From the NCBI GenBank assembly GCA_016212475.1, contig JACRGC010000002.1:1-64000 (forward strand): a DNA stretch of 64,000 nucleotides. The letters are read 5' to 3'. The stretch is from Microcaldota archaeon. Its GTDB lineage: Archaea; Micrarchaeota; Micrarchaeia; Norongarragalinales; SBBD01. The notes below the pieces were generated by a model. It made no database searches, had not been told where the DNA came from, and was given only the letters and a program-made list of their open reading frames with translations. This document shows, in pieces, positions 49,714 to 55,187 of the stretch (position 1 is the stretch's first letter; every line of letters starts with the position of its first letter). The position numbers and the translations under genes are program-made.

Positions 49714-49997
49714 CGCCTTGGCCGGGATTTCCTTGCCTGAAATTGGCGGAGCCGCAAAATCCTTTCTTTGGCGGAGCCACACGCCTTTCAATCAAAACTA
49801 TTTTTGATGAACCTTTTTTGAAAAAGGTTCAAAGAAAGGCAAGGCATTCGGACCCGGGTCAAGGGCTGTTTGTTAAACCGTTTTCTTCGATTCGAAAAAA
49901 CTCACTTCCTTTTCTTTTTCCGAAGCGCTTTTTCTTTTCGAGAAAAGAAAAAGGTTTAGCGACAAGCCCCTATGCTGGACCACTACACTACCAAGGC
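49714..49997 (-). tRNA. tRNA-Asp(GTC) with two introns (37/38, 92 nt, 49868-49959; 59/60, 119 nt, 49728-49846)
   Basis: Mature: GCCTTGG TA GTGT AGTGGTCCA GCAT A GGGGC TTGTCG^A GCCCT TGAC CCGGG TCCGAA^T CCCGG CCAAGGC G (73 nt). Intron 1 has a canonical BHB: TTGT/ACAA central helix, CGC and ACA bulges, TAAACC/GGTTTA inner helix. Confidence 0.88.
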
Positions 49998-50566: not shown

Positions 50567-50869
50567 TCCCGCAGGCCAGAATTCCAGAATTTAATGAATT
50601 CGCCACAAAAACGTTTTCTTTTGTAGCGACCCTACTTTTCTTTTCGAAAAGAAAAGCCGGGTCGTTTGAACTGGCAACCGTCTGATATCTGGCAGGCGAT
50701 TCGACTTCATGTGAAGTCAGCCGAACTACAGTTTCGTCATACCCTTTCTTTTTTTCCAAGGTTAGCGCATACGCAAAGGGCAAATTCCCTTTTTCTTTTC
50801 CGAAGCGCTTTTCTTTTTTGGGAAAAAGAAAAGGTTTGCAGACGCTCAGCCAGATTGAGCTACTGCGGG
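50567..50869 (-). tRNA. tRNA-Tyr(GTA) with three introns (30/31, 106 nt, 50733-50838; 37/38, 39 nt, 50687-50725; 59/60, 84 nt, 50581-50664)
   Basis: Mature: CCCGCAG TA GCTC AATCTGGCT GAGC G TCTG^A CTGTAG^A TCAGA CGGTT GCCAG TTCAAA^T CTGGC CTGCGGG A (74 nt). All stems pair; C1-G72 and A73 are typical of archaeal tRNA-Tyr; TATA-like TTTAAAAATATC upstream. Confidence 0.85.
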
Positions 50870-52622: not shown

Positions 52623-52857
52623 GCAGGGGTGGCAGAGCTTGGTCAAATGCGCAGGGCTTAGGTGAGCCTTTTTCTTTCACGAAAGAAAAAGCTTCGGGAA
52701 AAAGAAAGGTTTCTTAGAAACCCTGTGCCTTAGGGCTGCGAGGGTTCAAACGCCTTGCCTTTCTTTTGTAAAAGAAAGGCGTATGGCGCCGCCAAAGAAA
52801 ACAAATTAGCGGCTCCGCCGATTTTGTTGGCAAGGCATGAAAATCCCTTCCCCTGCA
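52623..52857 (+). tRNA. tRNA-Leu(TAG) with two introns (37/38, 57 nt, 52663-52719; 59/60, 93 nt, 52751-52843)
   Basis: Mature: GCAGGGG TG GCAGAGCTTGGTCAAATGC G CAGGG CTTAGG^A CCCTG TGCCTTAGGGCTGC GAGGG TTCAAA^T CCCTT CCCCTGC A (85 nt). TATA-like TTAAAAATAT upstream, T-run downstream. Confidence 0.87.
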
Positions 52858-52949
52858 TTTTTTTAATTTTATTGAATCAGAAGTCTTTTTAAACTCCATT
52901 TGCGATTTAATTTAACAAATGTCTAACTAGTGTTCGGCTGTTGACGATT

Positions 52950-55187
52950 ATGTCTGGAAACGGAAATGGATTGTCCAAGGAAGGCAGGAAAAAGCTAATG
53001 GATCTAGCGAAGCGCATAGTCATAAAGGTTGGGTCTAATGTCCTAACAACCCCTGAAGGCAAGCTGGATTTGAACAAAATGATGGAAATAGCCGAAATTG
53101 TTTCAAAACTTAAAGAGCAAGGAAAGCAGGTAATTTTGGTCTCATCCGGAGCAGTTGCTGCTGGAAAAATGAGGCTTGGGCTAAACGGAGGGGATCTGAA
53201 AAAACTTACCCTTGGGATGCAGCAATCCTCCGCTGCAATTGGTCAATCCATTTTAATGGAGCATTACAACAATTTCTTTGCAAAGCATCATCAAATCGCA
53301 GCCCAGTTGTTGCTGACTCCTGAGGATTTTGCTGATGAACTTCGCCATGCAAATGTCCAAAGCACACTTGATATGCTCCTTTCACTGAATGCAGTCCCAA
53401 TTGTCAATGAAAACGATCCGGTTTCAGTTGATGAGCTTGGGATTTGCCTTCTTCCTGAAGAAACCCTTTCGGAAAAGATGAAACTAGCTCTTAAAAACAA
53501 GGGAATTTACCTTGAAAAGTGCCTCCCCGGGCAAAAAGTTTTCGGCGACAATGACATGCTATCCGCCCTAGTTGCAAAAACCGTTTCTGCTAACCTATTG
53601 GTGCTTTTATCGGATGTTGATGGGCTTTATACCTGCAATCCAAAAGGCGAAAATGCGAACGCTGCAAGGCTGATTGATCACGTGCTGGAAATAGATGAGG
53701 ATATGGAAAAAATGGCAGCAGCTGATTGCGGCGATAACGGAAGGGGCGGAATGGCAAGCAAAGTAAAGGCGGCAAAATATGCAGCATCCCATGGGACTCC
53801 GGTGATTATTGCAAATGGCAAAAATCAGGTTATGCTTCCAAAACTTTTCCAAGGGGAGCGCGTTGGCACATTTTTTGAAACCAAGCAGTACGCCGAGGAA
53901 AAAACACTTGAAGGAAAGAGGGATGTTAGGGAAAAACTTACCCCCAAGCTAACTGCTGCAAAAAATTCAACAACCGTTCTTGGCATCATGGCAGACAAGG
54001 AAAAAAACGAGGCCCTATTGGTCCTTGCAAAGGCTATCCGGGCTTATTCGCCCGATATTTTAGCCGCCAACCAGTTGGACGTTGATGCCGCAAAAAGAAA
54101 GGGCGTTAAGGATTCCCTAGTCGACCGACTTACACTAAATGCAAACCGCATAGAAGAAATGGCCAAAATGTGCGAGTTTGTTTCATCCCTAAAAGATCCG
54201 GTCGGAGAAAAAATGGATAATTGGGCCGTAAAAAGCGGGCTTAACATTTCTAAAATCCGGGTGCCAATTGGGGTAATCGGCGTGATTTACGAATCCAGGC
54301 CAAATGTGACGGTTGATTCGGTTGCGCTTTGCTTAAAATCCGGCAATGCAATAATTCTAAAAGGCGGCAGCGACGCCCTAAATTCAAATATTGCAATTGT
54401 AAAAATTGTCAGGCAAGCGCTTAGGAAAACCAAAATCCCAGAAGAGGCGGTGCAATTTTTAGACGGTGGACGGGAGGAAGCTAATGAACTGATGAAGGCT
54501 AGCAGCTATGTTGATTTGATTGTCCCTCGTGGCGGAGCTAATTTGATTGATACGGTTAGGAAAAATTCGGTTGTCCCAGTGCTTGAAACCGGCGTTGGGA
54601 ATTGCCATATTTATGTCGACAAGGAAGCGGATTTGGAAATGGCAAGGAAAATCGTTCTCAATGCAAAATGCCAGCGCCCGGGCACTTGCAACGCCGCTGA
54701 AAAACTCCTAATTCACAAGGATGTTGCCGCTTCATTCCTTCCAAATGTTGCAAAAGAGCTCCATGAAAGGAAAGTCGAACTTAGGTGCGATAAGGAGAGC
54801 ATGAAAATCCTTGAGAATTCTAAAATCCCCCTCAAACTTGCTACGGAGGAGGATTGGAAAATGGAATATCTTGATCTTATTATGGGGATAAAAATTGTAA
54901 ATTCGCTTGAAGAGGCCATTTTGCACATAGGCAAATACGGAACCAAGCATTCTGAAGCAATCATCACAAAAAACAGCGCCTCATCAACCAAATTCATGAA
55001 GGAAATTGATGCAGCTGCCCTTTACCATAACGCTTCCACAAGATTCACGGATGGCTCGGAATTCGGGTTTGGGGCGGAAATTGGAATAAGCACGCAAAAG
55101 CTCCATGCAAGGGGCCCAGTTGGCCTTCGGGAATTGACCTCTTATAAATATTTGATAGAAGGCGCAGGCCAAGTGCGCGGCGGCTGA
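52950..55187 (+). CDS. Bifunctional glutamate 5-kinase / glutamate-5-semialdehyde dehydrogenase (ProB-ProA fusion)
   Basis: N-terminal IVIKVGSNVLTTPEGKLD, LVSSGAVAAG, GDNDMLSALVA; C-terminal GVIGVIYESRPNVTVDSVALCLKSGNAIILKGG, GTCNAAEKLL. Confidence 0.94.
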   Translation: MSGNGNGLSKEGRKKLMDLAKRIVIKVGSNVLTTPEGKLDLNKMMEIAEIVSKLKEQGKQVILVSSGAVAAGKMRLGLNGGDLKKLTLGMQQSSAAIGQSILMEHYNNFFAKHHQIAAQLLLTPEDFADELRHANVQSTLDMLLSLNAVPIVNENDPVSVDELGICLLPEETLSEKMKLALKNKGIYLEKCLPGQKVFGDNDMLSALVAKTVSANLLVLLSDVDGLYTCNPKGENANAARLIDHVLEIDEDMEKMAAADCGDNGRGGMASKVKAAKYAASHGTPVIIANGKNQVMLPKLFQGERVGTFFETKQYAEEKTLEGKRDVREKLTPKLTAAKNSTTVLGIMADKEKNEALLVLAKAIRAYSPDILAANQLDVDAAKRKGVKDSLVDRLTLNANRIEEMAKMCEFVSSLKDPVGEKMDNWAVKSGLNISKIRVPIGVIGVIYESRPNVTVDSVALCLKSGNAIILKGGSDALNSNIAIVKIVRQALRKTKIPEEAVQFLDGGREEANELMKASSYVDLIVPRGGANLIDTVRKNSVVPVLETGVGNCHIYVDKEADLEMARKIVLNAKCQRPGTCNAAEKLLIHKDVAASFLPNVAKELHERKVELRCDKESMKILENSKIPLKLATEEDWKMEYLDLIMGIKIVNSLEEAILHIGKYGTKHSEAIITKNSASSTKFMKEIDAAALYHNASTRFTDGSEFGFGAEIGISTQKLHARGPVGLRELTSYKYLIEGAGQVRGG

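Follow-up and report, generated by a model that had tools for sequence, protein, structure and literature searches.

Two introns predicted in the tRNA-Asp(GTC) gene of a micrarchaeon, the T-loop one belonging to a dispersed element family

The locus considered here raises two questions: whether a tRNA gene broken by two insertions, one of them inside the T-loop, can still give rise to a tRNA, and where the T-loop insertion came from. It lies in a window of 64,000 nucleotides (the whole stretch of DNA that was analysed) from a metagenome-assembled genome of a micrarchaeon. The reading that we hold with considerable confidence is that of a working tRNA-Asp(GTC) gene, both introns of which would be removed by an epsilon2-type splicing endonuclease, the second intron being a recent copy of a mobile element.

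The interrupted tRNA-Asp(GTC) gene

The gene extends from position 49997 to 49714 of the window on the minus strand, with discriminator G73 included, and is made up of three exons and two introns, as follows.

49960-49997, minus strand: exon 1, 38 nt, with the acceptor 5' strand GCCTTGG, the D-arm, the anticodon-stem 5' strand and the loop up to G37 (from ARAGORN on the spliced exons and from orthologues)
49963-49961, minus strand: anticodon GTC, in exon 1
49868-49959, minus strand: intron 1, 92 nt, at 37/38, with a canonical and perfect predicted hBHBh'
49847-49867, minus strand: exon 2, with A38, GCCCT, variable loop TGAC, T-stem CCGGG and T-loop residues T54, C55, C56, G57, A58 and A59
49851, minus strand: C55, predicted to pair within the BHB with G 49731 of the T-loop intron
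49728-49846, minus strand: T-loop intron, 119 nt, at 59/60, belonging to the dispersed elements with ends GCCTTGCC..GGCAAGG
49730-49732, minus strand: intron 3' strand GGA facing T54-C55-C56 in the predicted BHB central helix, followed by the 3-nt bulge AAT
49714-49727, minus strand: exon 3, with T60, T-stem CCCGG, the acceptor 3' strand CCAAGGC and discriminator G73

In the unspliced window neither ARAGORN nor Rfam detected tRNA-Asp or any other tRNA. Once spliced, the exons form a sequence of 73 nt which ARAGORN calls as tRNA-Asp(gtc) and in which all stems pair, and the isotype and coordinates given by the initial annotation hold, on the minus strand. The host genome was covered by sequence searches and by reading chosen regions. 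A search of it allowing up to 3 mismatches found no second tRNA-Asp-like exon 1; the assembly (1.37 Mb) is 91.6 % complete, so that another tRNA-Asp could have been missed. As this is the sole tRNA-Asp found in the genome, the gene is very probably functional. A decayed pseudogene carrying insertions, to which the deviation of C55 from the conserved U55 and the large share of the locus made up by the insert might point, is extremely improbable and was rejected in view of the paired stems, the ARAGORN call and the single copy found; relatives, moreover, have many T-loop-interrupted tRNAs of other isotypes. Standard tRNA finders can overlook essential tRNAs in genomes of this kind.

Predicted splice structures, the endonuclease and position 55

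Intron 1 had been described at the outset as a textbook hBHBh' with two 3-nt bulges, and the helices read here bear this out: helix h (GGGGC/GCCCT), the central helix (TTGT/ACAA), bulges CGC and ACA, and the outer helix (TAAACC/GGTTTA). Its removal would give the anticodon loop TTGTCGA. In two relatives of the same family (G001 and G002), tRNA-Asp also has a 37/38 intron, with identical exon parts of the BHB and a differing intron sequence. Intron 1 contains a hairpin family, CTTTTTCTTTTC..AAAAGAAAAAGCGCTTCGGAAAAAGAAAAGG, that is also present in introns of neighbouring tRNAs. As a side observation, another repeated hairpin family, CTTTTTCTTTTC..GAAAAGAAAAAGCGCTTCGGAAAAAGAAAAGG, makes up the anticodon-loop introns in several tRNAs and is found 3' of tRNA-His as well; it was located at window positions 49868-49959, 50788-50837 and 52660-52715 and at loci L354 and L358.

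For the second intron, the proposed length of 119 nt and the resulting T-loop TCCGAAT are confirmed, the mature loop being the same for every junction inside the AAT...AAT repeat. The predicted fold of the T-arm, CCGGGTCC-GAA-TGCCT.../AGGCA-A-GGA-AAT-CCCGG, leads from the T-stem and TCC through the bulge GAA, TGCCT, the intron, AGGCA, a single A, GGA and the bulge AAT back to the T-stem. It is a relaxed BHB, with a central helix of 3 bp and one additional unpaired A, and the probability of the central helix is 0.90-0.92. Between the two versions of a relaxed BHB offered by the initial annotation, TCC/GGA with TGCC/GGCA agrees with this favoured fold; the 7-bp alternative CCTTGCC/GGCAAGG was discarded as a splice structure, since folding favours TGCCT/AGGCA instead.

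When the T-loop intron was shuffled, BHB-like ends appeared in only 959 of 200,000 sequences, and the comparative evidence is much stronger than this test. RNAalifold recovered the same central helix from eight T-loop introns of the host genome, with position 55 paired as U-A in four, C-G in two and U-G in two. In a set of 40 T-loop introns from many genomes, T54 faces A in 39, C56 faces G in 39, Y55 faces R in 40 and a 3-nt bulge precedes C61 in 40, although some of this agreement follows from the manner in which the introns were found, the search having relied in part on a model that contained these pairs and on a filter for T54, Y55 and C56. The count leaves out six matches whose T-arm is intact and has a repeat of the 3' part behind it. 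In tRNA-Val(TAC), which keeps U55 and whose intron has the same 3' end as that of tRNA-Asp, the tRNA-Asp-type fold is not the predicted minimum and its central helix has a probability of 0.04-0.05. Both introns of tRNA-Asp are predicted to be spliced as BHB introns, the first canonical and the second relaxed.

The splicing endonuclease of the host (388 aa, L191) matches the ARMAN-2 epsilon2 enzyme 4fz2 over residues 13-388 (E=3.5e-127). It keeps Y160, K161, K228, Y236, H251, S252, R275, K282 and W384, which are all the reported catalytic or RNA-binding residues, Y160 and K161 being those of the ARMAN-specific loop, and its nearest relatives among named genomes are nearly all from Candidatus Micrarchaeota. 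The ARMAN-2 enzyme cleaves non-canonical introns (PMC4033280) and requires Y160/K161 (PMC12397907). Judging from its sequence, with these residues kept, the host enzyme is of the epsilon2 (ARMAN-2) type and, by type, should be able to cut a relaxed BHB.

U55 is near-universal in tRNA, and C55 cannot become pseudouridine. The initial annotation had singled out C55 as unusual and had suggested comparing this position in relatives; T stands there in all 18 tRNA-Asp orthologues read. The C55 of this gene is real, but it is not unique. The motif GGGTCCRAWTCCC is present in 193 of the 395 genomes searched, with few matches for the reversed control, and at several of its sites ARAGORN calls intronless C55 tRNAs, some other matches not being tRNAs (motif loci L161-L190). 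In the host genome itself, tRNA-Glu(CTC) and a tRNA read as Arg carry C55 without a T-loop intron. The idea that C55 is peculiar to the T-loop intron was rejected because intronless C55 tRNAs are found across the class.

Within the set of 40 introns, bases 54-56 read TTC in 38 cases and TCC in two, tRNA-Asp and tRNA-Lys(CTT). Opposite position 55 the intron has A 32 times and G eight times, T55 being faced by A in 32 introns and by G in six, and C55 by G in both of its cases; the association of C55 with an opposing G is only suggestive, consisting of two cases from one genome. Changing C55 to U in silico lowers the central-helix probability from 0.92 to 0.04 in tRNA-Asp and from 0.98 to 0.12 in tRNA-Lys. 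As C55 occurs without an intron in other tRNAs and T55 is found in the tRNA-Asp of relatives, we regard C55 as a tolerated minority variant, which here may also serve the BHB and could have been fixed through strengthening it. C55, without a possible pseudouridine 55, is tolerated in many archaeal tRNAs.

A dispersed family of short palindromic elements

By its sequence, the T-loop intron is no isolated oddity but belongs to a family that is dispersed and was recently mobile. The T-loop intron of tRNA-Val(TAC) is 93 % identical to it over 119-120 nt, and the BLAST alignment of the two loci extends over the intron and some 15 nt of the adjoining T-arm only, with no alignment in the other exon parts and flanks. 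The element is short (approximately 60-180 bp), palindromic and non-coding, with ends GCCTTGCC...GGCAAGG and the end pair GCCTTGCC/GGCAAGGC. The core model R2 has 16 matches in the host genome at E<1e-3, 14 of them inside 12 tRNA genes, and members of the family break up at least 12 tRNA genes, in T-loops and also, in both orientations, in anticodon loops. Related T-loop introns are carried by three tRNA-Leu genes, by Lys(CTT), Ala(TGC), His(GTG) and a CAT tRNA, and by tRNA-Trp and a probable tRNA-Tyr; isotypes lacking an ARAGORN check, like the protein-gene names rpS24e, rpS27ae and radA-like used below, are readings from the sequence.

The element is thus found at different tRNA positions, the T-loop and 37/38, the latter copies being forward in tRNA-Thr(CGT) and reversed in tRNA-Thr(TGT). 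Two strong intergenic copies lie right behind stop codons, one in the gap between rpS24e and rpS27ae and one after a radA-like gene, and at the rpS24e-rpS27ae site the element is absent in seven relatives. Neither the T-loop copies, save for a possible AAT, nor the intergenic ones have a clear target duplication. Two interrupted tRNA genes neighbour tRNA-Asp in the window.

50567-50869, minus strand: intron-rich tRNA, probably tRNA-Tyr, with an 84-nt T-loop intron of the related family GACCCGGCTTTTC..GAAAAGTAGGGTC
52623-52857, plus strand: tRNA-Leu(TAG), interrupted at 37/38 and also in the T-loop, there by a 93-nt intron from the family of the tRNA-Asp T-loop intron (core 52751-52802); missed by ARAGORN and Rfam

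The probable tRNA-Tyr also has long inserts within its anticodon arm. Further along the window, positions 52941-55187 on the plus strand hold a single ORF with amino acid kinase and aldehyde dehydrogenase domains, which looks like a ProB-ProA fusion.

The tRNA-Asp genes of the two nearest relatives, G001 and G002, are without the T-loop intron, and those of three genomes of the same order (G011, G018 and G020) have different T-loop introns; on this comparison the T-loop intron of tRNA-Asp is a recent gain. Outside the host genome, the covariance model R1 matches in 27 of 60 relatives, with up to 14 matches per genome, some of which are of a type with a duplicated tRNA 3' end. In such cases (G002, G021, G023 and G026), 75-180 bp separate an intact tRNA from a repeat of that tRNA's 3' end; the repeat is 16-20 bp long, begins in the T-loop or T-stem and reaches N73 or a point 1-3 bases beyond. 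This arrangement of an intact tRNA, a mostly reversed element copy and the repeat was seen at six loci in relatives (L248, L252, L265, L274, L285 and L288), at one of which (L252) the repeat stops short of the T-loop. Four of the six inserts score far above shuffles as reversed element, one moderately and one weakly.

Routes of spread and comparison with known systems

In the mechanism proposed here, the tRNA-Asp gene would be transcribed and the epsilon2 endonuclease would excise both introns from the precursor, the first being an ordinary 37/38 intron and the second a recently acquired copy of the short palindromic mobile element. The element would insert preferentially into tRNA genes, above all into the T-loop, where its 3' end (GRA and a 3-nt bulge) may pair with T54-Y55-C56 to form a cleavable BHB-like structure, and it would persist in T-loops because its 3' end completes that structure. 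That the gene is intact, that exon and intron are complementary in the BHB, that the intron belongs to the family and is a recent gain, that the element has also inserted outside tRNA genes and that the endonuclease is of the epsilon2 type can all be read from the sequences. We infer both the actual splicing and a transposition at the DNA level.

Two other routes would need no DNA transposition. A spread by ectopic gene conversion among tRNA loci, with no mobile element involved, would suit the near-identity of the Asp and Val introns and the short stretch of T-arm that aligns with them, but it is unlikely in the face of the intergenic and reversed copies, the 3'-end duplications and the unalignable remainder of exons and flanks. 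Spread at the RNA level, in which excised introns reverse-splice into other tRNAs and return to DNA via reverse transcription and recombination, agrees with the placement of most copies exactly at splice-competent tRNA positions; however, it is quite unlikely, since reverse splicing in the sense direction only cannot yield the two orientations seen at 37/38, and copies also lie between protein genes and, reversed, beside tRNA-3'-end duplications. The occurrence of both orientations together with intergenic copies speaks against a spread solely through gene conversion or simple reverse splicing.

A derivation of the element from a tRNA-targeting casposon, with a Cas1-type integrase, is very unlikely. 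The A. boonei casposase recognises TCAAATC near a tRNA 3' end and leaves 14-15-bp duplications, the duplicated segment starting 8 bp past TCAAATC (PMC6614799). The duplications in relatives are likewise of tRNA 3' ends, measure 16-20 bp and in most cases begin in the T-loop. Their geometry differs, however, as they start in or beside the T-loop and end at or just past N73, and the element copies do not show a duplication 8 bp beyond TCAAATC; a casposon origin was set aside as weakly supported for this reason.

With DNA-level insertion of the element as the preferred reading, several known systems offer partial parallels. In Thermoproteales a large-scale transposition of tRNA introns is described, with its mechanism given as unknown (Fujishima et al. 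2010, via PMC4033280 and PMC4090602). Shared with these transposed introns are near-identical introns in unrelated tRNAs, the different positions and the recent gain; what differs is the lineage (Micrarchaeota, DPANN), the epsilon2 endonuclease, the reversed copies, the intergenic copies with an empty site and the tRNA-3'-end duplications. For Caldiarchaeum, intron gain through integration of a mobile element at tRNA-Thr has been proposed (Sugahara et al. 2012, PMC3293823), and there too an intron is tied to a mobile element with tRNA fragments nearby (PMC3293823); that case, however, concerns a single locus, where the element measures 1.9 kb and carries a recombinase-like gene, whereas the present family is non-coding, of about 60-180 bp, and occurs in many tRNAs. 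ARMAN-1 and ARMAN-2 belong to the same phylum and share the three-unit enzyme and introns at various tRNA positions (PMC4033280, PMC12397907), but the accessible text of these papers does not mention a dispersed family of T-loop introns whose BHB includes position 55.

Copies in both orientations, outside tRNA genes and with an empty site in relatives are reminiscent of MITEs. By analogy, the element may also be likened to introners, the mobile spliceosomal introns of eukaryotes (PMC11782384), in which a short mobile sequence creates an intron on landing; the likeness is an analogy only, as a protein endonuclease would cut a BHB in tRNA here and the spliceosome acts on mRNA there. We tentatively put forward, at somewhat less than even confidence, that the micrarchaeal element is an archaeal counterpart of introners, combining DNA-level insertion, a preference for the T-arm and tRNA 3' end, spliceable palindromic ends and a fitting change of U55 to C. 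If so, most insertions would be spliceable, because the palindromic ends supply the intron half of the BHB. The family resembles the Thermoproteales and Caldiarchaeum cases in its working. What may be new, on a comparison with openly accessible literature, is that it occurs in this lineage, prefers the T-loop, includes reversed and intergenic copies and is accompanied by duplications of tRNA 3' ends; micrarchaeal T-loop introns as such may have been described before. The findings bear on how archaea gain tRNA introns, for which they suggest a concrete route, and owing to the recent gains, empty sites, both orientations and tRNA-end duplications the question is directly testable in this lineage.

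Two minor observations concern the more heavily interrupted genes. The T-loop introns of tRNA-Lys(CTT) and tRNA-Trp (L060 and L276) each apparently consist of two element copies, that is, nested insertions, and at L354 (G000:C17, near 19444) a tRNA gene appears to contain several large inserts, one of them in the T-loop.
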